From Acidobacteriaceae bacterium (GTDB taxonomy: Bacteria > Acidobacteriota > Terriglobia > Terriglobales > Acidobacteriaceae), in the NCBI GenBank assembly GCA_003139095.1, contig PLHW01000015.1, positions 1 to 37,960 of the forward strand: 37,960 nt of DNA. Reading direction: 5' to 3'. Made by a program: the position numbers and the translations under genes. This document shows, piece by piece, positions 4,015-35,078 of the stretch. The notes beneath the pieces were generated by a model. It saw only the letters and a program-made list of their open reading frames with translations, was not told where the DNA came from and searched no databases. How positions within the stretch are numbered: the first letter of the stretch is position 1; each line of letters starts with the position of its first letter.

Positions 4015-5325
4015 ATGGTCGTGAGCGGCAAAATCCGGAAGCGCGTCAGTCCCCAACGCCGTTGGGCCATCCCGTCTGGGTCGAAAGGAAGGAATTCCCC
4101 GGCACCTTGCCAAGCCATTGATTTCGGATGGCGTCTGCGCGGGAAGACGATTCGTCTGCTGCGGGACTCCTCTTTGACGTTGCTTCCCATTCGGCAGCGT
4201 GCCACGGCAGCCTTGCTGACCCAGTATTGCGCGGACGGGAATTCGCTTCTGTCCTGCCTGCAGTGCGGCGCCTGTACCGTGAACTGTCATCTCGCCGAAA
4301 CCGATGGCGCACTGTTCCCGCGGCGCCAGATGACGCTTCTGCAACTCGGCGAAGTGGACAAACTGCTGGCCGATCCCAACGTCTGGCTCTGTTTCAATTG
4401 CCAGGACTGTACCTCGCGCTGTCCGGCCAACGCCGGCCCCGGCCGGATCATGGCGGGCATTCGTCGCCTCGCCGTCGAGCACTATTCTGTGCCCCGCGGC
4501 TGGAGTCGTTTGCTAAATCGGCCGCGCGGTTTTCTGTTCCTCGTGCTGACGGCCACCACTCTGCTGCTGGCGGCCATCGCCGTCGGCGGTTCGTTCTCGC
4601 CCCAGATCGCGCCCGTGCGGTATGCCAGCATGCTTCCCCATTTCACGTTGAATCTGCTCTTTGGGACGATTGCTGGCATGGTACTGATCGGTGCCCCCAT
4701 CGGGCCGGCCCGCGCCTGGAAGGACTTCACCGGAGAATCGCTCTCGGAAGCCAACTGTGGCCGCCTCGTTCACTCCGCTCTCTCGGTCACTCGCCAGATC
4801 GCCACACACCGGCAATTCTCCGAATGTCAGCAGTTTCCCCTGAGCCGATGGGCGCACGCCGCTGTCCTTTATGGTTTCGTCACGCTGATGGCGCTGGCTG
4901 GCGCGGCGGCCACGCGGATCGCTCTCGGTGCTCCCTATCCTCTGCCTTTTTTCCACCCCTTCAAACTTGCCGGTAATCTCGCCGCCGCCTTGCTGGTCGG
5001 GGGCAGTCTCTACTTCTGCGTTCAACGGCAGCGCGCGTCGCGGATCCGGGGTGAAAGCTCATGGTTTGACTGGGCGCCATTGGTGCAGCTCTTACTCGTA
5101 AGCGTAACGGGCCTGTTGGCGGAAGTCTTTCGCTACGCCAATGTGGGCGCGCTGGCCTACCCGACCTACTTTTTACACTTGGCTTTTGTGTTCGTTCTGC
5201 TGGCGAGTGCCGCGAACTCCAAACTAGCGCACGTGTTCTATCGTACCGTTGCGCTTACAGCAGAGCAGTACAAAATAACGTCAGAAGCGCCCTTAGCCGA
5301 AGAACCTGAAAGCGTGGCGGCATGA
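4015..5325 (+). CDS. QmoC/HdrE-like membrane subunit (4Fe-4S + cytochrome b fold)
   Basis: This encodes 436 residues from the ATG preceded by GGGAG at five bases; an ATG twelve bases earlier and longer in-frame extensions lack such a site. The N-terminal third carries two ferredoxin-type motifs, CLQCGACTVNC (Cys81-91) and CFNCQDCTSRCP (Cys126-136), as in HdrC. The rest is about six hydrophobic helices (for example FLFLVLTATTLLLAAIAVGG, LNLLFGTIAGMVLIGA, AVLYGFVTLMALAGAAA, YFLHLAFVFVLLASAA), like the cytochrome-b half of QmoC. In sulfate reducers QmoC links the Hdr-like QmoAB to the menaquinone pool. By analogy this protein anchors the next three gene products to the membrane. The stop codon overlaps the next start (ATGA), implying translational coupling. 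The first 50 residues are basic and not obviously conserved. Confidence 0.85.
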   Translation: MVVSGKIRKRVSPQRRWAIPSGSKGRNSPAPCQAIDFGWRLRGKTIRLLRDSSLTLLPIRQRATAALLTQYCADGNSLLSCLQCGACTVNCHLAETDGALFPRRQMTLLQLGEVDKLLADPNVWLCFNCQDCTSRCPANAGPGRIMAGIRRLAVEHYSVPRGWSRLLNRPRGFLFLVLTATTLLLAAIAVGGSFSPQIAPVRYASMLPHFTLNLLFGTIAGMVLIGAPIGPARAWKDFTGESLSEANCGRLVHSALSVTRQIATHRQFSECQQFPLSRWAHAAVLYGFVTLMALAGAAATRIALGAPYPLPFFHPFKLAGNLAAALLVGGSLYFCVQRQRASRIRGESSWFDWAPLVQLLLVSVTGLLAEVFRYANVGALAYPTYFLHLAFVFVLLASAANSKLAHVFYRTVALTAEQYKITSEAPLAEEPESVAA

Positions 5326-6266
5326 AGCGCAACACTTCGCCAACGCGGCAGATATTTCCGGTCGAACTGCTCGCCAAAGGGCACGACGAACTCAAAGACA
5401 TTCCGGACGACGAACTGGTGTCGGCCTACGAATCCATGCGCGATCAGGAAGCCGCTGCCGGCCACGCATATCCGAATATCAAACGTCTGTACGGGACATC
5501 GCTCGAACGGGAGAAAGACCGCCGCGAAACTCGCGCCCAGGTGGAGAATGGCGATTCCGAAATGCAGGAGTGGTACGAGAAGGCTCGCAACCAACCCTGC
5601 ACCTGGTGGCTGAAGAACCATCTGGTTGCGAAACACGCCCTGAAAAGCTGCATTGCCTGCGGCGTTTGCACCGCCCAATGCCCGGCCGCCCAATATTATC
5701 CCGAGTACAATCCCCGAACTATCGTTGACGCTGCGCTATCGGAAAACGAAGACCGCCTGGTGGAACTCCTGAAGTCCGACGTTCTCTGGTACTGCGGACA
5801 ATGCGGCTCCTGCAAGCCGAAGTGCTCCCGAGAAAACAATTTGATGGGGCTGATTTCGTCGCTGCGCTTTCTTGCCCAACTGAAGGGATATCACCTTTGC
5901 AGTGTGCGCGGACGGCAGCAATATGCAGCGCGTCATCTCTGGGGCGGAAACCTGTGGAATCGCGGCTGCAGTCTGTACTTTCGCAATGTGGACGCGGAAG
6001 GTCACCCGGATTTTGGTCCCCGCTACGCCAGGTACCACTCAGAAATCGATCAGCAGATGAGTCGTTTGGGCGCGAGTCCCGACGCCGACGGGCAATTCGG
6101 CGGGCGCAAAGTATCCCCCGAGACTCTCGCTGAACTTCGTTCCTGCGTGACGGAAGGCGGGACCCTGGTGCTCTGGAACGAACTCGAGAAACACGCCTCC
6201 GAGAACGCAGAGAAAAATGGCGTCTCGATTGACGAGTACTACGACCGAGTGCGTTGCGAAGGGTAG
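5322..6266 (+). CDS. hdrC: HdrC-like iron-sulfur subunit
   Basis: This encodes 314 residues, starting within the stop codon of the upstream gene (ATGA). After an N-terminal region of about 100 residues rich in acidic and charged helices, two 4Fe-4S motifs follow: CIACGVCTAQCP (Cys110-120) and CGQCGSCKPKCS (Cys158-168). This is the HdrC pattern, in which the two clusters relay electrons between HdrA flavin and HdrB clusters. It is longer than methanogen HdrC (about 190 residues), having both N- and C-terminal extensions. No membrane segment is present. It belongs to a four-gene run whose other members are HdrB- and HdrA-like, so assignment as the small electron-relay subunit is secure; its physiological electron partners are not. 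Confidence 0.85.
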   Translation: MKRNTSPTRQIFPVELLAKGHDELKDIPDDELVSAYESMRDQEAAAGHAYPNIKRLYGTSLEREKDRRETRAQVENGDSEMQEWYEKARNQPCTWWLKNHLVAKHALKSCIACGVCTAQCPAAQYYPEYNPRTIVDAALSENEDRLVELLKSDVLWYCGQCGSCKPKCSRENNLMGLISSLRFLAQLKGYHLCSVRGRQQYAARHLWGGNLWNRGCSLYFRNVDAEGHPDFGPRYARYHSEIDQQMSRLGASPDADGQFGGRKVSPETLAELRSCVTEGGTLVLWNELEKHASENAEKNGVSIDEYYDRVRCEG

Positions 6267-6277
6267 GTTAAAAAACT

Positions 6278-7309
6278 GTGGCCATCGCTGTGACTATTCC
6301 GCCGATCACCATCAAAGAAATCCCGGAGAACGACTATTTCCTTACGCCGAGCTGCATCCTGGGAGCGATCAACCCCGGGACCGAAATGCTCATCAGCCGC
6401 ATCTACGACCGGCTCGGCGTGCGGTGGAAAGCCGCGGGAGACCGGCCCGATTCGCAGTGCACGTGCTGCACCGGCATTCTCTCTCACGGCGACGTCATGT
6501 CCATGGAAAGCACGCTGCTAGTCGTGGCGCGGCTCTGGTCGGTCGCCGCCGAACTGGGTTTTGAGAACATCACCACCGCCTGCGTAACCTCCTTCGCGAT
6601 CCACACCGAGTGCCTGGAGATGTACCACCATGAGCCAGGTTTGTACGAACGCGTGGACCGGTGGCTGCAACAAGCCTGCGGCCGCCGGCTGCAGATCCCC
6701 AAGCATGTAGTCCACGCCAGCGACATCGTGTATCGCTATCGCGACGTACTCGCGCAGCAATTGCGCTACCGCTTGGTGGACAGCCGGACCGGCCGGCCTT
6801 TGCGCATTGTGGATCATGTCGGGTGCCACTACGCGAAAGTCTTTCCCGATAAAGCCATCGGCGGCGCGGAGTCCTGTGAGGTTCTTACCGGGCCAATTCG
6901 CGCTTGGGGCGGCGAAACGGTGGACTACCCCGAGCGGCGCCACTGCTGCGGCATGGGGTTCCGGCAGTGCATGATTCGTCCTAACCGCGGCTACACCATG
7001 GCTTGTGTGCTGAAAAAGCTGGACAGTATGGAGCCCTGGGAGCCGGACGCGATCCTCACCAACTGTCCCGGCTGCAACGTCCTGCTCGATAAAGAACAGT
7101 GGGCGATTGAGCAGATGTGCGGCAGAACCTTCAATATTCCGACGCTTTCTTATACTGAACTCGCAGGCCTCCTGCTGGGGTGGGATCCCTACGATGTCGT
7201 CGGCATTCAAGCGCACACTGTGCCCGTCGAGCCGCTTCTCGACAAGCTTGGCATTCCTTACGACAAGTCCAAAGAATGGTTGACGAAGGAAGACGCGGAG
7301 GTCAGGTAG
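6278..7309 (+). CDS. hdrB: HdrB-like subunit with two CCG domains, the first degenerate
   Basis: This encodes 343 residues from GTG, 11 bases after hdrC. The second CCG module is complete: Cys183, Cys223-Cys224, Cys263 and Cys266 (GCHYAKV, HCCGMG, NCPGCN), the ligand set of a noncubane 4Fe-4S cluster. The first module has Cys26, Cys63-Cys64 (QCTCCTG) and Cys102, but the final CxxC reads CVTS, so one cysteine is replaced by Ser105. In methanogen HdrB both modules bind noncubane clusters and reduce the disulfide CoM-S-S-CoB. In bacteria HdrB-like proteins serve other, mostly undefined, electron acceptors. The natural substrate here is unknown. Confidence 0.85.
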   Translation: MAIAVTIPPITIKEIPENDYFLTPSCILGAINPGTEMLISRIYDRLGVRWKAAGDRPDSQCTCCTGILSHGDVMSMESTLLVVARLWSVAAELGFENITTACVTSFAIHTECLEMYHHEPGLYERVDRWLQQACGRRLQIPKHVVHASDIVYRYRDVLAQQLRYRLVDSRTGRPLRIVDHVGCHYAKVFPDKAIGGAESCEVLTGPIRAWGGETVDYPERRHCCGMGFRQCMIRPNRGYTMACVLKKLDSMEPWEPDAILTNCPGCNVLLDKEQWAIEQMCGRTFNIPTLSYTELAGLLLGWDPYDVVGIQAHTVPVEPLLDKLGIPYDKSKEWLTKEDAEVR

Positions 7310-7318: not shown

Positions 7319-8380
7319 ATGAAGAAACCGGTATGCATTATCGGAGGCGGGGTAGCGGGCATGCAGGTGGCGCTGGTGCTGAGTTCGCTCGGAATGCCAT
7401 CCCTGTTGGTCGAGAAGTCTCCGGTCCTTGGCGGGAGGGTTCCCAAACTCTCGCGGACTTTTCCTTTCTTCAACGACGATGGATTCAATGACGGGAAAGA
7501 ATTTAGCGACGCGATGGAACGCGACCTGAGGGCAAACCCTCTCATTGACGTTCGCTGCGGCGCCGTGGTCAGCGCCTTGCGCGGAGATTTTCCCAACTTC
7601 ACCATCGAGCTTGCCGACGGCAACTCACTCGCCGTTGGAGCGGTGGTGGTCGCTACCGGTTTCACACCTTTCGATCCCACCAGCCTCGCGGAATACGGCT
7701 ACGGAGTTTACCCGAACGTGATTACCGCGACCGAGATGGAGTGGATGCTGAACCCGCGCGGCCCAACCGGCGGAAAGCTCGTCCGTCCGAGCGACAGCAA
7801 GCAAGCCGAGCGTCTGGCGATCGTGTTCTGCGTGGGCTCGCGAAACCGTCGCATCGGAGCGCCCTTTTGTTCCCGCATTTGCTGCTCCTATAGCACCAAG
7901 CAGGCCAGCACGGTCATGGAGCGCAATCCCAGGGCGCTTGTGGCTTGCTTCTACATGGATGTTCGCACCTACGATCGCGGCTTCGAAGAGATGTATTCGC
8001 TGGCACAAGAACGGGGCGTCCGCTATATCCGGGGGCGCGTCTCCATGTGCCGGCAACTCCCGGACGGCTCCATTTCGGTCCGCGCGGAAAACACGCTCCT
8101 AAACCGCCCCTTCTCCGGTGAATTCGATCTGGTCTCTCTTTCGACGGGAATGAGGCCATGCGCGGACGTTAACGAATTGGCCCGTACTTTGGAAATCACC
8201 TGCGGCCCCGATGGATTCTTTCTCTGTAGGGAATGGTTCCGGCATCCGCATGACGCTACCCGCGACGGCATTTTTCTCGCGGGCTGCGCAACCGGAATGA
8301 AGCCGATTCGCAATTGCATGATTGACGGCGCGGCTGTAGCCGCGCGCGTGACCGCTTTACTCCAGGAGGCGCAGGTATAA
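7319..8380 (+). CDS. HdrA/QmoA-like FAD oxidoreductase
   Basis: This encodes 353 residues. An N-terminal Rossmann motif (CIIGGGVAGMQ, Gly9-Gly14) binds FAD. The segment FCVGSRNRRIGAPFCSRICC followed by SYSTKQA matches the cysteine-containing region of HdrA/QmoA, and the C-terminal GIFLAGCATGMKPIRNCMID closes the FAD fold. It is much shorter than methanogen HdrA (about 650 residues). It lacks the ferredoxin inserts and the C-terminal 4Fe-4S repeat, as in QmoA. It lies nine bases behind hdrB and is the last gene of the set. The presence of A, B, C and membrane subunits suggests a complete quinone-linked complex; whether it bifurcates electrons cannot be read from the sequence. Downstream the operon stops abruptly at IS debris, so further genes may have been lost. 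Confidence 0.85.
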   Translation: MKKPVCIIGGGVAGMQVALVLSSLGMPSLLVEKSPVLGGRVPKLSRTFPFFNDDGFNDGKEFSDAMERDLRANPLIDVRCGAVVSALRGDFPNFTIELADGNSLAVGAVVVATGFTPFDPTSLAEYGYGVYPNVITATEMEWMLNPRGPTGGKLVRPSDSKQAERLAIVFCVGSRNRRIGAPFCSRICCSYSTKQASTVMERNPRALVACFYMDVRTYDRGFEEMYSLAQERGVRYIRGRVSMCRQLPDGSISVRAENTLLNRPFSGEFDLVSLSTGMRPCADVNELARTLEITCGPDGFFLCREWFRHPHDATRDGIFLAGCATGMKPIRNCMIDGAAVAARVTALLQEAQV

Positions 8381-8447
8381 GATACGGAGTCGTCATTAAC
8401 AACCGCAAGGTATCGGCAGCCATTCCTGCATGGTGGCCTGCAAAACG

Positions 8448-8796
8448 TTCGCCGTGGATGCGAGGTGCACCCCAAGTTGGATTCTCCGCGACCATCTGGA
8501 AGATCAAGTCCCGCATTTGTTTGGAGATTCTCCGGCTGCCGCCGATTCGTTTTCGCACTTTGCAGACCATCGCCCAATACAGTTTGAACCCAGCCTGATG
8601 CCACCGAACCACCGTCTCGGGGAGGACGAGAAGAAGCGACTTTTCCCAGTCGGCCCAGAAACTGCGCGCCACGACCCAAAAGAGTTTGTTGGCGGAGGGT
8701 GAGGTTCTCCAGCATCAGACTGCGGTGGGTGCGAAAAATGCGAAGAACGGCTCCGAACCAGAGCCCAAAGAGGTCGAACAAGGTGGAGAAAGTTAT
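8448..8796 (-). pseudogene. integrase-type transposase remnant (frameshift, internal and 3' deletion)
   Basis: On the minus strand one frame reads FSTLFDLFGLWFGAVLRIF then LMLENLTLRQQ. The matching continuation NKLFWVVARSFWADWEKSLL then ETVVRWHQAGFKLYW and MVAENPTWGAPRIHGE is in another frame. About 20 codons are missing at the switch near 8690. The homology stops at HGE; the catalytic DDE core is gone. It is a cousin of, not a duplicate of, the intact transposase at the left of the window. It lies 67 bases after the HdrA-like gene and marks where the electron-transfer operon meets mobile DNA. Confidence 0.75.
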
Positions 8797-8942
8797 AGCA
8801 GATCGGATTTTGATCTTGTTGATTTCAAAGGCGGACGGAATTATGACGAGGCACACTTTGAAAGCACCAGGGGTCATCAGAGATCAACAGTTCTCAACGA
8901 GCAGCCTGCAACAGGTTCAACATCAATCACTTGGGAGCCTCA

Positions 8943-9042
8943 GAAATCTACAGATTTCAATAGGGGCTTGAATCTGGTTCGGGACCAGGTTCCCTACCGC
9001 TTCACTCTGTTCGGGAAAAAACTTCACCGCAAACTTCACCGC
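8943..9042. repeat. two short hairpins and a 12-bp tandem repeat upstream of the tRNA fragment
   Basis: The stretch from 8797 to 9124 has no gene I can support. It contains a perfect 6-bp stem (GAAATC-TACA-GATTTC), a 9-bp stem with one non-Watson-Crick position around TCGGG (8970-8992), and AAACTTCACCGC repeated twice head to tail (9019-9042). Such small repeats beside a tRNA-derived site could be arm-type sites for an integrase, but this is a guess and they may be chance. Confidence 0.3.
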
Positions 9043-9124
9043 AACAAGCGACGAAACGGCTCCAAAACGTACTTTTCGCTCCAGCTATGTCTCTGAAAAG
9101 ACAGCCTCGCATGCCCGAACAGGG

Positions 9125-9172
<48 letters not shown>

Positions 9173-9190
9173 TTCTTTTCATTCTTTTCA

Positions 9191-9258
9191 TGTCCGTTCC
9201 GGAGACATGGGTAACAGAACGTTCCGGAGACATAGGTTACACTTTTGGCCCGAAGGGG
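9191..9258. repeat. IS481 terminal inverted repeat (left in window)
   Basis: This matches the reverse complement of the right terminal repeat except for one extra G near the tip and one missing C near the inner end. The stop codon of the transposase frame lies inside it. Internal 22-bp units occupy 9195-9216 and 9220-9241, differing at two positions. Confidence 0.85.
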
Positions 9259-10408
9259 TTCTCCAGGGGCTGCAAGGTTTTTTCCTCCAGATCAATATAG
9301 CCGAGATCGTACTCCATAAAACTCACCAGCCAGATGCCGTGGTCGACTTCTTTGACGCCGACGGCCTGTCCCGCAAGGGAAACGCTGAGATTGATCTTCT
9401 TGTTGTACAAGCAAAGACGTCCGCAGCTGGTGACCACGACGGTGCGGTCGTGGAACGGGTAGTGCGGTTCGGGGATGCCTCGATAGGGGCGGCAAGAAGC
9501 CGAGTAGACCTCGGCGGGGCATTTCATGCCGAGAGCTTCATGGGGTCTTTCGTGATTGAACTCCTCCAGGAAAGCATCGAACTTGGCTTGCTGCTGCAGG
9601 ATGTTGGCGCCCGCCGGACGAGTGGCTTCTTTCTTCAGAGTCAGATGCATGCGTTCATGACGACCGTTCTGCTGCGGATGGCCAGGACGAATCCGCTCAA
9701 TCGAGATGCCTAACCGCAGCCACCACACCGAAAGCTTGGAGAGCTGAAACAGGCCATGCGGAGAGGCGAAGGGGACACCGTTATCAGAGCGGATGGCCCG
9801 CGGCAAGCCGCGTTCGTGGAACAGGCGCTCAAAGGCGGGAAAGGCGAGTTCTTCGGATTGGATTCCAGCGCTTCACACAGCAGCAGGTAGCGCGAGCAGT
9901 AGTCAGTGACGGTCAGCGGATAGCAATAGCGTTTGTCGCTCAACTGAAACTCGCCCTTGTAATCGGTGCACCAGAGATCGTTGGGATGCAAACCGTCGGA
10001 TAAGGGCGTTCCCTCAGCCCGATGGCGGCGCCGATTCATGGGCGTGACCAACCCATGGCGATCGAGCACGGCGTGAATAGTAGAAGCGGCGGGAGTCTTG
10101 ATGGCATGCGGGAGGCACCGCAGGAGGCGCTCCCGGATCTTGCGTGCGCCCCAGTGCGGTTTCTCCCGCTTGGCGTTCACGATGGCCGCTTCCACCGGCG
10201 CGGGTAACTGGTTGGCATAGCGGAAGGGCCGGCGAACTCGGTCACTCAACCCTTCCAGCCCACATTGCTGGTAACGCTCAAAGATTTTGTAGCCGGTCTT
10301 GCGCGAGATCCCGAACTCCCGGCACAGCGAAGCCATCGCCTCCCCGTCCTTGAGCCGGATCACAAACCTCATTCGTTCGTCCATCACAGAACGCTCCTTC
10401 CATGGCAT
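9237..10408 (-). pseudogene. IS481-family transposase, frameshifted
   Basis: The first part starts at MPWKERSVMDERMRFVIR, preceded directly by AGAGGAG. It carries the helix-turn-helix (MASLCREFGISRKTGYKIFERY) and the first catalytic Asp (LWCTDYKGEF). After CEALESNP the frame is lost. The missing sequence resumes in another frame with RAIRSDNGVPF (second Asp) and QQNGRHERMHLTLKKEA (Glu), and ends VNP-type as ENPFGPKV inside the terminal repeat. One deleted base near 9855 explains the break. Restoring it would give a protein of about 390 residues with a full DDE triad, so inactivation is recent. Confidence 0.85.
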
Positions 10409-10419
10409 CTCCTCTCCGC

Positions 10420-10487
10420 CCCCTTCGGGCCGAAAAGTGTAACCTATGTCTCCGGAACGTTCTGTTACCCATGTCTCGGAACGGACA
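10420..10487. repeat. IS481 terminal inverted repeat (right in window)
   Basis: This is the partner of the left terminal repeat and carries the same doubled 22-bp unit in inverse orientation. The outer unit has lost one G of the GG pair after CGTTCC. Confidence 0.85.
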
Positions 10488-10642
10488 TCTACAACTTCCA
10501 AAACCTCAAAATAAAACTTCGCCGCATTTGAAAATAATTTGTGAAGTTGCCTGGCCGCAAAGCCGGCGTCCCTTCTAAGCTTTCCTCACGAAAACGCCAT
10601 GTTTCCCTGACTAGCGGCCCGAACGGCGAAGAAGATAGCTGG

Positions 10643-10684
10643 TTGACAACGCAGGGGTGGGGCACTAGCATGCCAACCGGTTGG
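10643..10684 (+). promoter_or_regulatory. sigma70-like promoter with a palindromic operator
   Basis: TTGACA (10643-10648) and TAGCAT (10666-10671) are separated by 17 bases. The perfect 12-bp palindrome CCAACCGGTTGG begins one base later, covering the expected transcription start. Palindromes of this kind are typical operators for TetR-family repressors. No regulator gene is present. The promoter points at the broken SnoaL-like gene, the LivG tail and livF, so it would have driven the operon whose remains follow. Confidence 0.5.
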
Positions 10685-10753
10685 TAGAATCCTATTTCCC
10701 CCAACGACCGATGGTCTTGCCTCACAAGGACCGATACTTTTTGACTCACTCCC

Positions 10754-10904
10754 ATGACTGACACTTTCGAAACTCAACGCGAGGAACTGGCGCTGCTGCT
10801 GGATGAGGCGGCGTGCCGGCGAGTACTTTCGCAATATGGGCCCAGCCTGGACTGACGAAATCCAGAGGCTCTGGCGAGCACGGTGTGGCCCGACGCGGTG
10901 TCGC
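10754..10904 (+). pseudogene. SnoaL-like (NTF2-fold) protein N-terminus with an in-frame stop
   Basis: An ATG opens MTDTFETQREELALLLDEAA, then CRRVLSQYGPSLD and a TGA at 10853. Reading through it, the frame continues RNPEALASTVWPDAVSQDP. The 'DEAACRRVL-YGPALDW--LE-VFWPDA' pattern is the start of SnoaL-like polyketide-cyclase/NTF2-fold proteins, in which the stop position is normally Trp. The fragment ends where LivG-like codons begin in another frame. It is therefore doubly broken: a nonsense mutation and a deletion that removed its C-terminal two thirds together with the front of livG. Confidence 0.6.
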
Positions 10905-11126
10905 AAGATCCGCGATAGCGGCATCGCGGTGCTCATGATCGAACACCTGATGCAGGCGATCATGAGTCTTTCGGATCGCATCGTGGTGCTGAACCTGGGA
11001 TGCAAACTGGCGGAAGGCCGACCGGATGAGGTGGTGCACAATCCGGCTGTCGTGGAATGCTACCTGGGCTTTCCCGATGCGGTTCATAAATTGACCCTGG
11101 CTAGCAAGTTGACGTGGAGGAAATGA
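10905..11126 (+). pseudogene. livG: livG fragment: C-terminal ~73 codons of a branched-chain amino-acid ABC ATPase
   Basis: The frame reads IRDSGIAVLMIEHLMQAIM, then LSDRIVVLNLG, KLAEGRPDEV and VVECYLG. This is the H-loop region and tail of LivG (switch histidine in IEH). Walker A, the signature motif and Walker B are missing. The codons upstream belong to the SnoaL-like scrap in a different frame. The stop codon TGA overlaps the ATGATG start of livF, as in intact liv operons, so the livG-livF junction is original and only the front has been deleted. Confidence 0.75.
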
Positions 11127-11839
11127 TGGACCCGGTTCTTCAACTGGAGAGCGTCGAGTCTGGATACGGTGAAGTCCAGGTCCTGTGGGGCATTTCGTTC
11201 GAGGTTGAGCGGGGGAGTTTTACCACCATCCTTGGTACGAATGGCGCCGGCAAAACCACCACCCTGCGCACCATCATGGGCAGTCTGCGGGCATGGAAAG
11301 GGCGCGTACTGCTACACGGAGAAGACATCACGCGGCTTTCACCGCATGCCAAAGCCGATCGCGGTCTGGTGCTGGTGCCCGAGGGCCGGCAGCTTTTCCC
11401 GGACATGTCAGTGCGAGAGAACCTGGAGATGGGCGGGTACTCGAAGCGCGCCCGCAAGCGACAGAAACAGAACATGGAACGCGTCTATGACATGTTCCCG
11501 CGCCTGCAAGAACGCCACCAGCAAAAGTCTTCCACGCTCTCCGGCGGAGAGCAGCAGATGCTGGCCATGGGCCGCGGCTTGATGCAGGAAGCGGAGGTGC
11601 TGATGATCGACGAGCTCTCGCTCGGCCTGGCCCCGGTGGCGGCGCAACAACTCTTTCTGACCTTGAGCAGCCTGCGGAAAGAGGGTCTCACGGTCGTCCT
11701 GGTAGAACAGAATGTGCACCTGGCGCTGGCGATCAGCGACTACACCTACGTGTTTGCCGAAGGTCGAATCAGCATCCGCGGCGATTCGGACGACGTGGCA
11801 AGAATGGATGAAGTGCGACGCGCGTACCTTGGACTCTAA
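11126..11839 (+). CDS. livF: branched-chain amino-acid ABC transporter ATP-binding protein LivF
   Basis: This encodes 237 residues, the usual LivF length. GGAGG five bases upstream favours the second of two adjacent ATGs. Walker A GTNGAGKT (37-44), signature LSGG (138-141), Walker B VLMIDE (158-163) and the H-loop region VEQNVH are all present, so it should be a competent ATPase. LivF works with LivG, two permeases (LivH, LivM) and a periplasmic binding protein to import Leu/Ile/Val or related substrates. Here only a LivG tail remains beside it and no permease is in the window, so it is an orphan unless it serves a transporter encoded elsewhere. Confidence 0.85.
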   Translation: MDPVLQLESVESGYGEVQVLWGISFEVERGSFTTILGTNGAGKTTTLRTIMGSLRAWKGRVLLHGEDITRLSPHAKADRGLVLVPEGRQLFPDMSVRENLEMGGYSKRARKRQKQNMERVYDMFPRLQERHQQKSSTLSGGEQQMLAMGRGLMQEAEVLMIDELSLGLAPVAAQQLFLTLSSLRKEGLTVVLVEQNVHLALAISDYTYVFAEGRISIRGDSDDVARMDEVRRAYLGL

Positions 11840-12195
11840 GAGCGAGCGATTTCCCAGCCGAGGCGGTGCCCTTAGTGACACGACGACGCACGCAATCAAC
11901 CTGGACGAAAGGACGAAAGCTGGTTTTACAAACGGCTGCATGCAGATATTGGCGAAATCAGACTTTGCGCCGCCTGCGAATTTGCTGGTGAACTGGCGAA
12001 GTCACGCTGGCTGCGGATTCAATCTGTCAACCGTGTGTTTGCTCTGACATTTACAAGAGTCCCGTCGGTTCGTGATCTCTTCTCGATGCCCAGATCGAGC
12101 ACCGTCTCGATCTCCATCGGCTTCCTGGGAAGGAATCGAAGAAGCGCTGCTGGCCAGCCCGTACAACGAAAACGCCATGTGGCAGCAGCGGCATT
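11840..12195. other. non-coding / decayed stretch after livF
   Basis: No gene can be supported here. One plus-strand frame ends, at 12224, with SWEGIEEALLASPYNENAMW then QQRHFIQGKLGR and TGA. It reads like the tail of a real protein but has no start and no recognisable family. The remainder shows no conserved motif, RNA gene or clear terminator. Confidence 0.4.
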
Positions 12196-12483
12196 TCATT
12201 CAGGGAAAACTCGGCCGTTGATCGCATGTCTCTCTGGCAGTCCTTGCAAGACAGCCCGCTTGCGGGCCCTTCTCTCGATATGGTCTTGGTACCAGTCCAA
12301 GAGCGTGCACGCTTCGCGTATGAGGCAGTCGTACACATGCTCCGGCGTCAGTTGGCTCGGCGGCAGAGATAGGACGGTACTTATCGGAACGTGATTTGAA
12401 ATTCTCGTGACTGCCAAGAACGCAATGAGTTCGGCGTCAGACTTCGGTTCCTTCTTCGCTAGACTGTGGAATGGATGCTCCAT
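12196..12483 (-). CDS. small hypothetical protein
   Basis: This encodes 95 residues beginning MEHPFHSLAKKEPKSDAELI. The composition is balanced, with an acidic-hydrophobic helix (DCLIREACTLLDWYQDHIER) followed by a basic stretch (RARKRAVLQG). There is no signal peptide or membrane segment, and I recognise no family. There is no clear ribosome binding site before the ATG. The decayed plus-strand tail described next door overlaps its 3' end. It could be a real orphan gene or a chance frame in mobile debris. Confidence 0.35.
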   Translation of the reverse strand: MEHPFHSLAKKEPKSDAELIAFLAVTRISNHVPISTVLSLPPSQLTPEHVYDCLIREACTLLDWYQDHIERRARKRAVLQGLPERHAINGRVFPE

Positions 12484-12976
12484 CGCAACACCGCTTTAAG
12501 AAAAAATGGTGCAGCCTCAACTGCTGCGCCGTGATTGGGAGCAAAGGAACCCGGGCGACCGCTTGGGGTCCCTAGCTCGTTTTGCGGGTTAATTTACAAC
12601 GGCGCCAATCCAGAAATCTGTTCAAAATTGCACAGTCTCGAAATCAAGGGCATTCCGGGGCTCCTTCTCCATCCATAGGTGTCATCTGCATTTTGAGGGT
12701 TTCAGAGTTGCGTGCGCCCTCGTCAGTCCGGCCCTTCCATCTTGCCCGACGCGGTAGTGACCAGCACGCCGATTACGTTCTCGTTCAGCACATCCAGCAT
12801 TTTCTTCGCCTGCTCGAACGTGATTCCGTTCGACAGTTCGAAGCCAACCTAAACGCCCCTAAGCGCGGAAATCGTGTCATGATAAGGCCGAACTTCGACT
12901 ATGATCGACCCGGCCTGCCGGCCAATCCCAAAACCAATACTTGCTCTTTCGATCTTAGTTGCCGCCATATTCGGAC
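12484..12976. other. decayed stretch with one minus-strand gene tail
   Basis: The only protein-like piece is on the minus strand at 12723-12848, 41 residues ending in TGA: GFELSNGITFEQAKKMLDVL, NENVIGVLVTTASGKMEGPD. It is preceded directly by an in-frame TAG and has no start codon, so it is the broken C-terminus of an unidentified protein. The rest of the stretch shows no convincing coding frame, RNA gene or repeat. Confidence 0.4.
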
Positions 12977-13224: not shown

Positions 13225-13395
13225 AATACGGTCTAGTATCAACCCGAGTTACTTGGCCCGCGTGTCACGTCGTTCGCGGACAATCATCACATCGACCGGT
13301 GACCGCTGTTGCTGATTTGACCCGACTCTGATGCTTTACTTAGGCGGTCGCACGAAAAAGGCGGGCACTGATCGTCAGGCCATACGGGTATCCGA

Positions 13396-13782: not shown

Positions 13783-13796
13783 CCACAACGATCAAG

Positions 13797-13825: not shown

Positions 13826-13826
13826 T

Positions 13827-16314: not shown

Positions 16315-16330
16315 GATTTCCGGATTTTGC

Positions 16331-28621: not shown

Positions 28622-31600
28622 ATGCAGCACGACTTTCAACGTATCGCAATCGTCAATCGCGGTGAAGCCGCCATGCGCTTCATTCACGCTGCGCGAGAGT
28701 TCAACCAGGAATACGGCACATCGCTGCGCACGATCGCGTTGTTCACGGATCCTGATCGCCACGCCATGTTTGTCCGCGAATCGGACGAGGCATTCTCTCT
28801 TGGTGCCGCCCAGAGTATTGATCCAAATACCAATTCCCCAAAGTGCAGTTATGTCGATTATGGGCGACTCGAACGCGCCTTGACCGCAGCTCGTGCGGAA
28901 GCGGTTTGGGTGGGGTGGGGCTTTGTCGCGGAACATGCCGATTTCGCAGACCTTTGCCATGACCTGGGCATCGTCTTTATCGGGCCCGACGGTGCCGTCA
29001 TGCGGCGTCTCGGCGACAAGATCGCTTCCAAACTCATGGCTGAGCGGGCTGGCATTCCTGTGGTTCCCTGGAGCGGCGGCTCGGTTGATACCCTAGCCGA
29101 TGCCACCTTGCACGCCCGGCGCCTCGGCTACCCTTTGCTCATCAAAGCGACTGCTGGAGGAGGCGGTCACGGCATTCGCATCGTGCGCCTCCCATCGGAA
29201 CTTCCCCGGGCCTTCGAAAGCGCTCGCGCCGAAGCCTTTAAAGCGTTCGGAAATCCCACTGTCTTCATGGAGCAACTGCTTCGCAACACACGACATGTCG
29301 AGGTCCAGATCATTGCCGACCACTATGGCACAACCTGGGCCGCCGGGGTGCGCGACTGCACCATCCAGCGCCGCCAGCAGAAGATCCTCGAAGAGGCGCC
29401 ATCTCCAGCTCTCTCGTTCGAACAGGATCAGGCGTTGAGGGAAGCCGCTATTCGTCTGAGTCAGGCCGCCGGCTATCACAATGCCGGGACGGTGGAGTTC
29501 CTTTATCAACCCGATGGCCGGCGTTTTTCTTTCATGGAGATGAACACGCGCCTGCAAGTCGAGCATCCCGTCACCGAACTCACGACGGGCCTCGATCTGG
29601 TCAAACTTCAGATTCACGTCGCGCGTTTCGGTCGCCTTGAAGGAGAGGTCCCGCCGGTCAACGGTCATGCCATCGAGGTTCGCCTGAACGCGGAGGATCC
29701 GGACAATGGTTTTGCGCCCGCTCCCGGCGCCATTGAGCGCTTTCGCATCCAAACCGGGCCGGGTGTGCGTATCGATACTGGCGTCACCGAAGGCGATTCC
29801 GTTCCCGCGGAATTCGATTCCATGATTGCCAAGCTGATCGCGCATGGCCGCAACCGCAAAGAAGCCCTCTCCCGGCTTCAGCGCGCGTTGCGCGAGAGTG
29901 TGGTGGTGGTCAAGGGCGGAGCCAGCAACAAAGCGTTTCTCCTCGAACTACTGAACCGTCCCGAAGTTCAGGACGCCCAAGTCGATGTCGGGTGGCTCGA
30001 CCGTTTGATGGCAGATCGAGAGCGTCTATCCAGACCCTACGCTGATGCTGCATTGGCGGCCGCTGCCATTGAAGCCTACGAGGCTGAACTTGCCGTGGAA
30101 CGAACCCAATTCTATGCCTCGGCGGTGCGCGGCCGTCCGCAGGTTCGGAGCGCGGTCGGCCGGGTCCTGGCGTTGCGCTACCGCGGCCAGTCTTATTCGC
30201 CTACGGTCTTTCGTCTTGGGACAAACCGGTATGGCGTGGAAATGGATGGGGCCCGCGTCCAGATCGAGAGGGATCGCCTCGGTCAGTTTGAATATTGGCT
30301 CAACGGATTTGACCGGCGATTCCACATCGTCTCTGTGCTTCAAGGCCTCAGCTACGCAATCGAGGTGGATGGCGTCGCTCATCGGATTGACCGCGACGAT
30401 GGCGGCGTCGTGCACGCGCCCGCTCCTGCCGTGGTTATTTCGATTCAGGTCAAGCCGGGTGATTCAGTTTCCGCTGGCGATCGTCTCGCCGTACTGGAAG
30501 CGATGAAAATGGAAATGGAAGTCGTTGCTCCATTCTCCGGAAAAGTCCGTTGCGTATTGACCATTCCTAACGTACAGGTCGACACCGGCGCGCCTTTGCT
30601 GCAAATCGATCCCCTGGCCGACGAGGCAAACGTGACCGAGCAGAAGCGGGTAGCTCTCGGAGTGTCGAACGCCACCCGCGAAAGCATCGACGACCCGCTT
30701 TTTGCCGTTCGCTCAAATCTGGAGGATCTTCGCCGGCTCATGCTGGGCTTCGATGTGGATCCGGCCCAGGTTTCGCGCTCCCTGTCCGAGTGGAGCCGCA
30801 ATTGTCCCGTCGGCAATCAAGAGATCGAACGTGCGGAGAATGAGATTCTCAATATCTTCGTCGATATCTGTTCTTTGTTTCACCGCCAGCCCCAGCTGGA
30901 CGATCCGAGCGGCGGTGAGCGCCCCAGTGCCGAAGCCTATCTCTTTACCTATCTGCGCTTGATCGACACACGAGGGGAAGGGTTACCCCCTGCTTTTGTC
31001 GAAGCTCTGCAGCGTGCCCTCACCCACTACGGCATAACGACACTGGATCGTTCGCCGGAATTGGAAGACAGCCTGCTTTGGATCTACAAATCGCATCAGC
31101 GGCTGGAGCAGCAAATCGCGCCGATTTTGCTCGTCCTTGAACGCCGCTTGCGGTGCGTCGAAAATCTTCCTCCAAGCTCCGACGAAGGGTTTCGCACTCT
31201 TCTCGGGCGCATCATCTTCATAACCCATGAGCTGTTCCCGGCCGTCAGCGACATGGCCCGGGAGGTGCGCTACCGCTATTTCGATCAGCCACTGTTTGAG
31301 GCGGCGCGCAGGCAGGTATATGCCCAGCTGGAAGGAGACCTCGCCTACCTCACTACCAATCCCGGGGCCGCCGACCGGTCCGAGCGAGTACAAGCGTTGG
31401 TGGAATGTCCTCAGCCCCTCGTCGGCCTGTTCGCCAGCAGGTTTGGCGAGGCCAGCCCCGCTTTGCGACAGTTGATGCTGGAAGTGTTTGTCCGGCGCTA
31501 CTATCGGATTCGCACGCTTATGGACTTTCACTCCTGGGTAGCCGATGGGCAGTGTTATGCATCGACAGAATACGATCATGAAGGCAAGCGCGTTCACGTC

Positions 31601-34231
31601 TTCAGCACGCACTCCGACTTCGCCCGGCTTTCAGAAACCGCCCGGACACTGAATCCTTTGATTGCCGAGATACCGGCCGATTGCGAAATTGTCGTCGATC
31701 TGTACGCCTGGCATTCCGAGCCCCTTGGCAATCCGGAAACTACTCAGCGGGAAATCTGCGCCCTGCTCCAACAAGCCGGCTTCATTCGGCCCATTCACCG
31801 CATCCTCGTCGCCGTCGGAGGTCCAAATGGGCAGGCCGGCACCATGCAGCAGTTCACCTATCGTCCGTCGAATGACGCCTACGCCGAAGACCGGTTCTAT
31901 CGCGGCATACATCCGATGATGGGAAAGCGTCTGCATCTGTGGCGGCTCAACAATTTCGACATTGAGCGCCTTCCCTCCGCGGAAGACGTTTATCTGATTC
32001 GTGGTGTCGCCCGCGACAATCCCAAAGATGAACGCCTATTCGCCTGCGCCGAAGTTCGCGATCTTACTCCCGTGCGCGATGAGACCGGCCGCATCGTGCA
32101 GTTACCGCATCTGGAGCGCATGTTTGCCGAAGCGCTGGCCGCCATCCGCGCCATTCAGACGCGACGCAAGGCTCATGAGCGCCTCTGCTGGAATCGGGTC
32201 CTGCTCTATGTTTGGCCCCCACTTATTCTCGAATCCGATGAGCTCAACAACATCGTGCACAAGTTGCAGCCTGCGACCGAAGGACTTGGCCTGGAGCAGG
32301 TTGTGGTCCGGGCTCGCATCCCCAGCCCGGAAACCGGCGAACTGCGCGAAATGGTCGTTCGAATCTCCACCCCGGTGGGCAGCGGTGTATTGATCACCTT
32401 CCGCCCCGCCAATAAACTTCAGCCCATGAAACCACTGGCGGAGTATGAACAGAAGGTCGTCCGCATGCGCCAACGTGGACTGGTTTATCCCTACGAGATC
32501 ATCAAAATGCTGACCCCGTCTCCGGAACACACGCAGGCGGAGTTTCCTCCGGGCACCTTTGTCGAGCACGATCTTGGCCCCGACAACCGGCTCGTTCCCG
32601 TCGACCGTCCCTATGGGCAAAACAAGTCGAACATTATCGCCGGCGTCATCCGCAACTTCACGGAGCGCTATCCGGAGGGGATGACCAGGGTCCTGTTGGC
32701 GGGCGACCCGGGCAGGGATTTGGGCGCGCTGGCCGAGTCCGAGTGCAAACGCATCATCGCCGCTCTCGATTTAGCCCAGGAACTCGGCGTGCCTCTCGAA
32801 TGGTTCCCCATCTCGGCCGGAGCCAAAATTGCCATGAACAGCGGCGTCGAGAACATGGACTGGATCGCTGCGGTCCTGCGCCGCATTATCCTCTTCACGC
32901 AGGCTGGCGGCGAAATCAACCTGCTCGTCAATGGCATCAACGTGGGTGCCCAACCGTATTGGAACGCCGAGGCCACCATGCTGATGCACACTCGCGGCAT
33001 CCTCGTTATGACACCGAAAGCGGCGATGGTTCTGACCGGCAAGCGGGCGCTCGACTACTCCGGTGGAGTCTCCGCCGAGGACAATTTCGGCATCGGCGGC
33101 TATGACCGCATCATGGGCCTGAACGGCCAGGCCCAGTATTTCGCGAGCGACCTTGAAGAGGCCTGCCACATCCTCTATCGCCACTACGATCACACGTACG
33201 TGGCGCCGGGCGAGCGCTTCCCCCGTCGCGCACTCACCAATGATCCCGTTGACCGCGATGTCCAGTCCTACCCGCACAAGAGAAACGGCGAAGAAGGCTT
33301 CACGCGGACCGGCGAGATCTTTTCCAACGACACCAATCCGGGGCGCAAGAAGTCCTTTGACATTCGCCGGGTCATGATGGCCACGGTCGACCAGGACCAT
33401 GCTCCCTTGGAGCGTTGGTCTGGCATGCGCGGCGCAGAAACGGCAGTGGTCTGGGATGCCCACCTCGGTGGCTACCCGGTGTGTCTCATTGGCATCGAGT
33501 CTCGTCCCGTGCCTCGCCTGGGATTTGTGCCCGCCGACGGACCCGACCAATGGACCGCCGGGACGCTTTTCCCAATGTCTTCAAAGAAAGTAGCTCGTGC
33601 TCTCAACGCCGCGAGCAACAATCGCCCAGTCGTCATCCTGGCCAATCTTTCCGGCTTTGATGGATCTCCCGAATCGTTACGCAGACTGCAACTGGAGTAT
33701 GGCGCGGAGATTGGACGCGCAGTCGTCAACTTCCGGGGCCCCATCGTCTTTTGCGTAATTTCTCGCTATCACGGCGGCGCCTACGTGGTGTTCTCACGGG
33801 CGCTTAACAAGCAGCTTGAAGTGGTGGCGCTGGAAGGGACTTATGCCTCCGTAATTGGAGGCGCGCCCGCGGCCGCCGTAGTTTTTGCCGGCGAGGTCGA
33901 AGCCCGAACTCGAAAAGATCCGCGTCTAGTAACGCTGAATGAGGCCCTCGCGCGAGCAACTGGCGTGGAGAAAAGTCGCCTGCAGACGCAAGCAGCCGAA
34001 CTTTACAAGGCCATCCAATCCGAGAAGCTCGGCGAGGTGGCCGACGAGTTTGATCGCGTGCACAGCGTCCAACGAGCACTGGAAGTGGGCGCGTTGCACC
34101 AGATTATTGCTCCCGCGACCCTTCGTCCATATCTCATCCATGCGGTACACAACGCAATAGAAAAGGAGCGGGAATCAAGAGCGGAAGCGCCCTCAACCGG
34201 CAAGGTCGAATCGATCGAAAGCGCTGCCTAG
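28622..34231 (+). CDS. single-chain acetyl-CoA-carboxylase-like enzyme, eukaryotic domain order
   Basis: This encodes 1,869 residues; GGAG stands five bases before ATG. The biotin carboxylase (1-460) has the ATP-grasp loop KATAGGGGHGIRIV and EMNTRLQVEHPVTE. A beta-rich segment (490-590) leads to the BCCP domain with EAMKMEM (biotinyl Lys629). A region of about 550 residues (690-1250), unlike standard bacterial carboxylases, sits where eukaryotic ACC has its central domain. The carboxyltransferase follows in two halves (about 1260-1800): VPLEWFPISAGAKIAMNSGV and VLTGKRALDYSGG in the first, then LGGYPVCLIGIESRPVP, ILANLSGFDG and YHGGAYVVFS in the second, parallel to yeast ACC1 (SGARIGM, LANWRGFSGG, RGGSWVV). 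It would convert acetyl-CoA to malonyl-CoA for the megasynthase just upstream; propionyl-CoA cannot be excluded. It lies 44 bases behind the megasynthase gene. Confidence 0.87.
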   Translation: MQHDFQRIAIVNRGEAAMRFIHAAREFNQEYGTSLRTIALFTDPDRHAMFVRESDEAFSLGAAQSIDPNTNSPKCSYVDYGRLERALTAARAEAVWVGWGFVAEHADFADLCHDLGIVFIGPDGAVMRRLGDKIASKLMAERAGIPVVPWSGGSVDTLADATLHARRLGYPLLIKATAGGGGHGIRIVRLPSELPRAFESARAEAFKAFGNPTVFMEQLLRNTRHVEVQIIADHYGTTWAAGVRDCTIQRRQQKILEEAPSPALSFEQDQALREAAIRLSQAAGYHNAGTVEFLYQPDGRRFSFMEMNTRLQVEHPVTELTTGLDLVKLQIHVARFGRLEGEVPPVNGHAIEVRLNAEDPDNGFAPAPGAIERFRIQTGPGVRIDTGVTEGDSVPAEFDSMIAKLIAHGRNRKEALSRLQRALRESVVVVKGGASNKAFLLELLNRPEVQDAQVDVGWLDRLMADRERLSRPYADAALAAAAIEAYEAELAVERTQFYASAVRGRPQVRSAVGRVLALRYRGQSYSPTVFRLGTNRYGVEMDGARVQIERDRLGQFEYWLNGFDRRFHIVSVLQGLSYAIEVDGVAHRIDRDDGGVVHAPAPAVVISIQVKPGDSVSAGDRLAVLEAMKMEMEVVAPFSGKVRCVLTIPNVQVDTGAPLLQIDPLADEANVTEQKRVALGVSNATRESIDDPLFAVRSNLEDLRRLMLGFDVDPAQVSRSLSEWSRNCPVGNQEIERAENEILNIFVDICSLFHRQPQLDDPSGGERPSAEAYLFTYLRLIDTRGEGLPPAFVEALQRALTHYGITTLDRSPELEDSLLWIYKSHQRLEQQIAPILLVLERRLRCVENLPPSSDEGFRTLLGRIIFITHELFPAVSDMAREVRYRYFDQPLFEAARRQVYAQLEGDLAYLTTNPGAADRSERVQALVECPQPLVGLFASRFGEASPALRQLMLEVFVRRYYRIRTLMDFHSWVADGQCYASTEYDHEGKRVHVFSTHSDFARLSETARTLNPLIAEIPADCEIVVDLYAWHSEPLGNPETTQREICALLQQAGFIRPIHRILVAVGGPNGQAGTMQQFTYRPSNDAYAEDRFYRGIHPMMGKRLHLWRLNNFDIERLPSAEDVYLIRGVARDNPKDERLFACAEVRDLTPVRDETGRIVQLPHLERMFAEALAAIRAIQTRRKAHERLCWNRVLLYVWPPLILESDELNNIVHKLQPATEGLGLEQVVVRARIPSPETGELREMVVRISTPVGSGVLITFRPANKLQPMKPLAEYEQKVVRMRQRGLVYPYEIIKMLTPSPEHTQAEFPPGTFVEHDLGPDNRLVPVDRPYGQNKSNIIAGVIRNFTERYPEGMTRVLLAGDPGRDLGALAESECKRIIAALDLAQELGVPLEWFPISAGAKIAMNSGVENMDWIAAVLRRIILFTQAGGEINLLVNGINVGAQPYWNAEATMLMHTRGILVMTPKAAMVLTGKRALDYSGGVSAEDNFGIGGYDRIMGLNGQAQYFASDLEEACHILYRHYDHTYVAPGERFPRRALTNDPVDRDVQSYPHKRNGEEGFTRTGEIFSNDTNPGRKKSFDIRRVMMATVDQDHAPLERWSGMRGAETAVVWDAHLGGYPVCLIGIESRPVPRLGFVPADGPDQWTAGTLFPMSSKKVARALNAASNNRPVVILANLSGFDGSPESLRRLQLEYGAEIGRAVVNFRGPIVFCVISRYHGGAYVVFSRALNKQLEVVALEGTYASVIGGAPAAAVVFAGEVEARTRKDPRLVTLNEALARATGVEKSRLQTQAAELYKAIQSEKLGEVADEFDRVHSVQRALEVGALHQIIAPATLRPYLIHAVHNAIEKERESRAEAPSTGKVESIESAA

Positions 34232-34250
34232 AGAACGCGCGTCCAATAGA

Positions 34251-35078
34251 GTGTCGCAGATGTCGAGTCCTTCACAAGATTCCGCGCTTCTGGAGTTACC
34301 AGATGGAATGAATGTTTATTGGCTGGAACAAACCGAGGCCGACTTACCACCGGACAATGCTTGGCTGAGCCTTGAAGAGGCGCGGCAAATGGATCGCTTG
34401 CGTTTTGCGAAGCGCCGCGCCGACTGGCGTCTGGGTCGCTGGACAGCAAAACGCGCGGTAGCACTTTGTCTGGGCATTCCAGAACAGCCGCGGGAACTCG
34501 CAGAAATAGAAATCCTTGCCGCCCCATCGGGCGCACCCGAGGTTGTTCTCGATGTTCAGCTGGCTACCAACTTCGCGATTCCGCTGGTCGCACCGAGGAT
34601 CTCGCTTAGTCACAGTTGCGACCGTGCCGTTTGCGCTGTAGCCCTCTCAGGAGCCGCGCTAGGCTGCGATCTCGAGGAGATCGCGCCTCGAAGTGACGCT
34701 TTTGTTGCCGATTTCTTCACGGCCCAAGAACAAGCGACCGTTGCACGCAGTTCCCCCGCCGACCGACCTCGCATTTCGACTTTGATTTGGAGCGCGAAGG
34801 AGAGCGCGCTCAAGGCACTCCATACCGGCTTGCGCCTTGATACCCGATCATTAATCGTCACCGCCGGGGAATCGTTCTGCGAGTGGCAAACGCTACGGGT
34901 CCACCATCGAGACGGTCAAATCTTCTTGGGTTGGTGGCAAGAAGCTGAAGGTTTCGTGCGAACAATAGTCTCCAATCACGTTAGGCCGAACCTGCCAATC
35001 TATCTAAGAGAGATCGCTGCGAGCACAATTCATCGGACCACGGACCGAAGTCTCGCGCTCAATGCGCCAAGACGATAA
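34251..35078 (+). CDS. Sfp-type 4'-phosphopantetheinyl transferase
   Basis: This encodes 275 residues from GTG; an ATG nine bases further in is an equally possible start, and neither has a good ribosome binding site. The family motifs are in order: RLGRWTAKRAVA, SLSHSCDRAVCAVA, LGCDLEEI (Asp140 and Glu142 as metal ligands), FFTAQEQA and WSAKESALKAL (Lys183, Glu184). It transfers phosphopantetheine from CoA to carrier proteins. It follows the carboxylase by 19 bases and ends the operon, so its natural target should be the three carrier domains of the megasynthase. Those carriers show threonine, not serine, at the attachment position, which makes this pair worth biochemical attention. Confidence 0.88.
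   Translation: MSQMSSPSQDSALLELPDGMNVYWLEQTEADLPPDNAWLSLEEARQMDRLRFAKRRADWRLGRWTAKRAVALCLGIPEQPRELAEIEILAAPSGAPEVVLDVQLATNFAIPLVAPRISLSHSCDRAVCAVALSGAALGCDLEEIAPRSDAFVADFFTAQEQATVARSSPADRPRISTLIWSAKESALKALHTGLRLDTRSLIVTAGESFCEWQTLRVHHRDGQIFLGWWQEAEGFVRTIVSNHVRPNLPIYLREIAASTIHRTTDRSLALNAPRR

Follow-up and report, generated by a model that had tools for sequence, protein, structure and literature searches.

Gene content and operon structure

The window analysed here is a stretch of 37,960 nucleotides from an Acidobacteriaceae bacterium (GenBank assembly GCA_003139095.1, contig PLHW01000015.1; G000:C26:1-37960 in our numbering), whose assembly comprises 5.53 Mb in 75 contigs. It carries genes for an electron-transfer flavoprotein (ETF; etfB, etfA) and its membrane oxidoreductase (etfD), followed by genes for an acyl-CoA dehydrogenase (ACAD), an iterative megasynthase, a fused carboxylase and a phosphopantetheinyl transferase (PPTase). 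A set of Hdr/Qmo genes lies further upstream (Table 1). Gene identities were assigned by open reading frame calls and family scans, which confirmed that all genes named in a first-pass annotation of the window are present on the + strand. That annotation had also proposed that etfD to the PPTase gene form one operon. This is the case, because the intergenic gaps are only -1 to 70 bases (12, -1, 11, 70, 44 and 19 bases).

Table 1. Features of the window, with the operon genes listed first.
Feature	Position	Strand	Assignment
etfD	14152..16314	+	Membrane ETF:quinone oxidoreductase, D1-less type; cytochrome b-like N-terminus, two 4Fe-4S sites, CCG
etfB (ETF beta)	16327..17157	+	Family scans
etfA (ETF alpha)	17157..18143	+	Family scans
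Acyl-CoA dehydrogenase (ACAD)	18155..19834	+	VLCAD-type fold, C-terminal helical domain, catalytic Glu368 (YEGT) kept
Iterative megasynthase	19905..28577	+	KS-AT-KS2-ACP3-KR-DH, no ER domain found; family scans
Three tandem carrier domains (in megasynthase)	24921..25907	+	Each DLG[VI]DTVKQAE; Thr at phosphopantetheine site
Single-chain carboxylase	28622..34231	+	BC-BCCP-central-CT, acetyl-CoA carboxylase type; family scans
PPTase	34251..35078	+	ACPS superfamily; motifs GCDLE and WSAKESALK
Small glycine-rich protein	13396..13782	+	C-terminal PIDYA invariant
qmoC-like	3919..5325	+	Truncated Hdr island, outside operon
hdrC	5322..6266	+	Truncated Hdr island, outside operon
hdrB	6278..7309	+	Truncated Hdr island, outside operon
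hdrA (short)	7319..8380	+	Truncated Hdr island, outside operon
Insertion sequence remnants and livG/livF-like remnant	8381..14151		Between Hdr island and operon

The ACAD gene as constant partner of the synthase gene

ACAD and the synthase N-terminus were found together in 40 readings, seven of which were repeat readings of the same place, leaving 33 distinct loci in 32 genomes. At all 33 the ACAD gene is located directly upstream of the synthase gene on the same strand. The gaps were estimated at -11 to 624 bases, the estimates being slightly high (74 bases estimated vs 70 true bases in the window). The hosts belong to four bacterial groups: Terriglobia and other Acidobacteriota; Xanthomonadales and Woeseiaceae metagenome-assembled genomes (MAGs); 'delta'/Myxococcales MAGs; and Actinomycetes and Acidimicrobiia. 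Most loci were found via the fused carboxylase and are therefore a biased sample.

Another 25 readings contained the synthase without ACAD. In 22 of these the stretch begins no more than 273 bases away from where the synthase is first seen, so that the upstream gene is out of view; L025 completes a locus that was already counted. As for the remaining three, L190 (G335) shows no N-terminal half within 13 kb, in L197 (G090) the open frame has not ended after 2.2 kb, and L065 (G411) has only a DH-like piece beside the carboxylase. The best ACAD of G411 (L160) is 45-49% alike and adjoins no synthase. Genome G401 gave no ACAD match at 1e-100, and its contigs stop shortly past etfA and within the synthase. 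Among the readable loci there was no clear counter-example to the order ACAD-synthase. At L065:7986-14817 an etfA-like piece (residues 206-319, 80%) and the DH-like piece (39-46%) stand directly 5' of the fused carboxylase.

In a second survey, a query with the KR-DH part of the synthase matched 25 of 396 genomes of the phylum at 1e-60, 22 of them closely (E <= 4e-247). Six additional loci had their 5' flank assembled (G265, G073, G121, G282, G203, G349), and ACAD was present at each of them, whereas only five of the 22 genomes with a close synthase were also among the fused-carboxylase genomes (1e-120). ACAD, not the carboxylase, is therefore the constant partner of the synthase. The carboxylase was discarded as defining partner, as 17 of these 22 genomes are outside the fused-carboxylase set and five of ten fused-carboxylase genomes have no synthase match at 1e-80. 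The same single-chain carboxylase was seen without a synthase match at 1e-80 in Acidobacteriota at L006, L007, L010, L012 and L013 (G082, G211, G316, G340, G311).

The catalytic glutamate of ACAD is invariant (26/26). A structure model of the protein aligned to VLCAD, ACAD9 and bacterial relatives over 477-515 residues (3owa, 515; 2uxw, 487), and the modelled core, catalytic Glu and C-terminal helical domain are those of the VLCAD/ACAD9 type. No other fold of interest was present among the structure matches listed, a listing in which absence excludes nothing. The matches of ACAD included enzymes acting on carrier-bound substrates, i.e., the prolyl-ACP dehydrogenase 4irn, ColB1 (7xp7), and the prolyl-PCP dehydrogenase and PigA families. 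Pairwise identities of ACAD and of the first KS domain were correlated (r 0.90; 14 loci, 91 pairs), a value to which we give no weight because it has no control gene. In G051 and G420, genes for PFOR and a dihydroorotate-dehydrogenase-like protein adjoin ACAD, divergently in G420.

Megasynthase, threonine-type carrier domains and carboxylase

The megasynthase consists of KS (residues 7-478), AT (617-912), a second KS (about 1020-1640), three ACPs, KR and DH. Its best NCBIfam match is TIGR02813 with 912 bits, under the cutoff of 1010, and its DH matches PKS_DH_N and PS-DH. All 14 long synthases compared, including that of the window, keep the Cys/His/His triads of both KS domains, the AT motif GHSLGEY, the KR Ser/Tyr pair and the DH motif HxxxGxxxxP. 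The second acidic residue of DH, usually Asp, is Glu, and the glycine motif of KR reads TGAAGSI. Because Cys and both His residues are kept in 14 of 14 proteins, the second KS is not obviously a dead chain-length factor and may be an active KS.

In phmmer alignments the tandem ACPs have threonine where the serine of the DSL motif aligns. With a search pattern that left this position free, 116 of 116 carrier motifs in 37 loci from several phyla read LEADLG[VI]DTVKQAE, with Thr at the phosphopantetheine site. The domains thus lack the carrier serine, yet they score above the PF00550 cutoff. Nine carriers were found with PF00550 in the window genome: the three of the operon, all with Thr, and six others, all with Ser (AcpP DSL, then TSL, DSL, DSM, DSV and DSF, the DSF one just below the cutoff). 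The PPTase gene is located downstream at 14 of 14 loci (L048-L061), and the operon enzyme keeps GCDLE and WSAKESALK, which we take to be typical PPTase motifs. Judged from these sequences, phosphopantetheine would be attached to threonine. In one reported test, E. coli AcpP with the substitution S36T failed to replace the wild type (PMC9456370).

The carboxylase combines BC, BCCP, central and CT domains in one chain, like the single-chain carboxylases of actinobacterial and eukaryotic type, and is 49-54% identical to actinobacterial proteins; it differs from such enzymes in its position within a lipid-synthase operon. A comparison with a phage collection gave 34 records, none covering 80%, and the five matches listed cover the biotin-carboxylase part only.

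The electron-transfer genes

In 17 genomes (G000, G210, G402, G396, G409, G399, G398, G400, G404, G397, G405, G406, G407, G408, G410, G073, G121) etfB-etfA are found directly 5' of ACAD and preceded by etfD, with estimated etfA-ACAD gaps of 7-20 bases in the 14 genomes for which they were computed. The etfD gene is cut by the contig end in G408 and G410, and the contigs of G401 and G403 stop short of ACAD. Among the other loci read, etf genes adjoin ACAD only in an Acidimicrobiales genome (G418:C225, L157). There a different set, etfB-etfA-etfD, with 30-33% identity and in another order, precedes ACAD-synthase; the same partners seem to have been recruited independently. This genome holds two ACAD-synthase loci, one of them with its own D1-bearing etfB-etfA-etfD (L157:1-6000).

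The window EtfD matches EtfD of M. smegmatis (PDB 9ojn) with 273 bits. Ligands were mapped by alignment onto 9ojn, with ligand positions taken from PMC13083937. None of the four D1 cysteines is kept in any of the 15 operon EtfDs aligned, whereas all 15 keep the eight cysteines of D3/D4 and, in D2, the cysteines and the histidine. The membrane part, two 4Fe-4S sites and the D2 CCG site are hence present, and the ligands of the linear 3Fe-4S cluster of D1 are absent. D1 is kept in another EtfD of the window genome (L163), in that of G051 (L164) and in the L157 protein. With mycobacterial EtfD and with FadF and DgcB, the operon EtfD has in common the membrane heme-b part, two 4Fe-4S sites, CCG domains, D2 ligands and adjacent ETF genes (PMC13083937). 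It differs from mycobacterial EtfD by the missing D1 cysteines (15/15), a feature of FadF and DgcB, too, which are thought to accept electrons from ETF (PMC13083937), and from all of these by its location in a synthase operon. Because the genome carries two ETFs in addition, one of which has an EtfD with D1, the operon ETF set is a separate paralogue.

Storage-lipid genes near the operon

A gene for a wax-ester synthase (WS/DGAT; 343 bits vs a cutoff of 310) is located near the operon at 6 of 18 loci (the 17 etf genomes plus G265), several of which have short flanks. It lies just upstream of etfD at L045, L137, L140 and L142, one gene further away at L136, and divergently before ACAD at L184. 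AdhE (1138 vs 951 bits) precedes WS/DGAT at three loci, and a cholesterol-oxidase-like GMC protein is encoded near six (L018, L049, L061, L136, L140, L184). The single WS/DGAT gene of the window genome is found on contig C9 beside AdhE, apart from the operon. This locus (L217:4545-15245) encodes AdhE, WS/DGAT, an ABC1 kinase, an alpha/beta hydrolase and a member of the PHB-accumulation-regulator family, relatives of genes that flank the operon elsewhere. The simplest reading would be that the operon belongs to a storage-lipid locus in several relatives and stands apart from it here, beside insertion sequence (IS) debris. Twenty neighbours scanned at gammaproteobacterial, 'delta', actinobacterial and some acidobacterial loci included none that points to a lipid-modifying step.

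The Hdr/Qmo island

The first-pass annotation had regarded the Hdr/Qmo set as part of the same combination. The interval between hdrA and etfD is 5771 bases long and contains fragments of transposases, an IS-like element whose inverted ends are 57 nt long (9202-9258 and 10421-10477), livG/livF-like pieces and one small gene. The window resembles the Hdr island of G402 (83.7% similarity) from about 3845 to about 8447, ending just past hdrA, and the next island gene, encoding an Fe-S/NrfD protein, is broken at about 8447. In G402 and G021 the Hdr set runs on into genes for this Fe-S/NrfD protein (508-516 aa) and a molybdopterin oxidoreductase (952-953 aa). An HdrB query matched 2 of the 396 phylum genomes at 1e-40 (G000, G021). 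In 31 genomes (operon genomes and control locus L085) it gave four matches at 1e-20, two of them at 32% identity, and besides G000 the sole close match was G402 (94%), in which contig C356 carries the Hdr set and contig C5 the operon. The QmoC match (266 bits) is below the curated cutoff of 300.

Because of the debris-filled gap and the break after hdrA, island and operon look adjacent by accident. The Hdr/Qmo genes are a truncated, unrelated island outside the operon system. That they form one functional system with the operon, as had been proposed, is highly improbable: the two share strand and window, but HdrB orthologues are rare in the phylum, the close one of G402 is encoded on another contig, the window island ends in IS debris, and its counterparts in G402 and G021 continue with Fe-S/NrfD and molybdopterin oxidoreductase genes instead. 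A role as operon partner was rejected as a conserved association, since the set does not recur with the operon in the genomes searched. The expectation of the first-pass annotation that these neighbours recur in relatives thus failed for the Hdr half and held for the other (etfB-etfA-ACAD in 17 genomes, ACAD-synthase at 33 loci).

A rare Hdr-type island was encountered at L133:11040-15493 and L134:654-10000 (qmoC-hdrC-hdrB-short hdrA, then the Fe-S/NrfD and molybdopterin oxidoreductase genes). It is possible that it encodes an Hdr-linked respiratory complex in Acidobacteriota.

Other features of the window

The small glycine-rich protein encoded 5' of etfD is probably a membrane protein and has no Pfam match. 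Its gene occurs near the operon at ten loci, 5' of etfD or 3' of the PPTase gene, and is at most a candidate operon member. The Hdr island is flanked on the - strand by an RHS-repeat fragment (882-3685) and transposase remnants (8256-10585). Convergent to the operon (35150-37927, - strand) are genes for a GatZ/KbaZ-like protein and a hexapeptide-repeat protein, and a PALP-family piece. Rfam (gathering scores) and tRNA scans across the window gave no matches.

Comparison with known systems

Synthase, carboxylase and PPTase together make up the Type R secondary-lipid cluster known from the literature, as judged by its described domain order and gene order. Type R clusters were described as encoding one pfaA-like KS-MAT-CLF-ACP(3-6)-KR protein with a downstream PPTase and an uncharacterised product; Acidobacteria are among the hosts, a carboxylase gene is found between synthase and PPTase genes in Koribacter, and the clusters are often accompanied by other lipid genes (Shulse and Allen 2011, PMC3098273). 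Correspondingly, the window operon has KS-AT-KS2-ACP3-KR on one protein, the carboxylase in between and the PPTase downstream. It differs by ACAD, etfDBA, a C-terminal DH, an intact second KS triad and Thr-type ACPs, none of which is mentioned in the available part of PMC3098273. The view of the first-pass annotation that this is not a known combination is therefore not supported for synthase, carboxylase and PPTase, while the partnership with ACAD and ETF is apparently new. The following also appear to be new: (i) ACAD directly upstream of the synthase across four bacterial groups; (ii) etfDBA before ACAD and the loss of D1 in the operon EtfDs; (iii) WS/DGAT adjacency in six relatives; (iv) threonine at the phosphopantetheine site. 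No account of Thr-type ACPs or of ACAD/ETF with Pfa-type synthases was found among the open-licence papers listed.

Pfa synthases of polyunsaturated fatty acids likewise have KS-AT-tandem ACP-KR. In contrast to them, the operon was found to contain no PfaD enoyl reductase, no PfaC-type pair of FabA-like DH domains and no separate PfaB or PfaC; it has a PKS-type DH on the same chain, ACAD/ETF instead, and Thr on the ACPs. In wax-ester fermentation of Euglena, ACAD, ETF and rhodoquinone are proposed to reduce enoyl-thioesters for wax-ester chains. This pathway is a CoA-bound reversal of beta-oxidation without malonyl-CoA (PMC6334954), whereas the operon encodes a carrier-bound megasynthase and a carboxylase.

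Proposed function and alternatives

We tentatively favour the reading that the operon encodes a complete fatty-acyl synthase, iterative, of type I and of the Type R kind, in which ACAD is the in-trans enoyl reductase and which feeds storage lipids. The fused carboxylase would provide malonyl-CoA, the PPTase would arm the Thr-type carrier domains, and the megasynthase would perform condensation, ketoreduction and dehydration. The alpha,beta double bond would then be reduced in trans by the VLCAD-type ACAD, with electrons flowing from menaquinol via EtfD and EtfBA, or via the general cellular ETF where etf genes are not local. Finally, the long acyl chains would be incorporated into neutral storage lipids (wax ester or triacylglycerol). 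ACAD is read as enoyl reductase because the operon holds the other synthase steps without an ER domain and one constant extra gene, that of ACAD. Gene content, operon spacing, conservation, active-site residues and neighbours, as described above, are direct observations, and so is the absence of a recognised ER domain, whereas we infer the reductive direction, the acyl-ACP substrate, the attachment of phosphopantetheine to Thr, the quinone and the product. The suggestion of the first-pass annotation that redox flow is linked to product formation was a fair one. The potential of menaquinone (about -74 mV) is below that of enoyl/acyl-CoA (about -10 mV), so that menaquinol would be able to drive the reduction. 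Euglena ACD1 is a reported precedent for a reductive ACAD-ETF-quinone system, as cited in PMC6334954.

Several points weigh against this reading. There are no etf genes beside ACAD at the gammaproteobacterial or 'delta'/myxococcal loci read, nor in G265, which belongs to the same family, or in G051, G063, G054, G282, G203 and G349. Gammaproteobacterial hosts use ubiquinone, with which quinol-driven reduction would be difficult. Hosts without local etf genes, some of them with ubiquinone, speak against a universal quinol-driven reduction. The lack of an ER match refers to the megasynthase, and no search was made for enoyl reductases encoded elsewhere in the genome. The column of the second heme histidine contains 11 H, 3 D and 1 Y in the 15 operon EtfDs, perhaps owing to the alignment, and WS/DGAT was not seen beside 12 of 18 operons, several with short flanks. 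At L155, an NMO-family protein adjoins ACAD; considered as a PfaD-like enoyl reductase, it gave no NCBIfam match at 1e-10. ACAD, ETF and EtfD usually work in the oxidative direction, as with mycobacterial EtfD (PMC13083937), and the role of Euglena ACD1 has been called open, about 60% of the wax ester being left upon silencing (PMC6334954).

That usual direction (PMC13083937), together with the ACADs for carrier-bound substrates among the matches (4irn, 7xp7, the prolyl-PCP dehydrogenase and PigA families), could also mean that ACAD acts oxidatively and introduces a double bond into a finished or growing acyl-ACP, much as dehydrogenases of the ACAD type act in some natural-product pathways on substrates bound to a carrier, with EtfBA-EtfD passing the electrons to the quinone pool. 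We consider this rather unlikely, since the synthase would then have no enoyl reductase in its operon and would make polyenes or borrow a reductase, and the storage-lipid neighbours do not call for such a step. Alternatively, ACAD-ETF-EtfD could be a recycling branch that starts beta-oxidation of stored long-chain acyl groups and is co-regulated with synthesis. The VLCAD-type fold fits this idea, as do a second VLCAD-like ACAD, an acyl-CoA ligase, alpha/beta hydrolases and a patatin near some operons. It is nevertheless improbable. A purely degradative gene is hardly expected to adjoin the synthase gene on its 5' side in four bacterial groups and at 33 loci. Two ETFs besides that of the operon are encoded in the genome, one of them with an EtfD that bears D1, and the operon was found to contain neither a thiolase nor a hydratase nor a 3-hydroxyacyl dehydrogenase.

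Returning to ACAD as in-trans enoyl reductase, a wider proposal would be a class of megasynthases, spread across phyla, with two features. The enoyl step would proceed via a menaquinol-driven, ETF-linked ACAD, a respiratory electron sink into storage lipids and bacterial counterpart of wax-ester fermentation, and the carriers would be phosphopantetheinylated on Thr by a dedicated PPTase and thereby insulated from Ser-type ACPs. This proposal in its full form is a speculative one that we regard as rather unlikely.

If the model is true, soil bacteria from several phyla would link the enoyl step of fatty-chain synthesis to the quinone pool instead of NAD(P)H, and threonine would have to be counted among the anchors of phosphopantetheine. 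It would also change the reading of Type R clusters and point to storage neutral lipids for a family whose product was uncharacterised in 2011.

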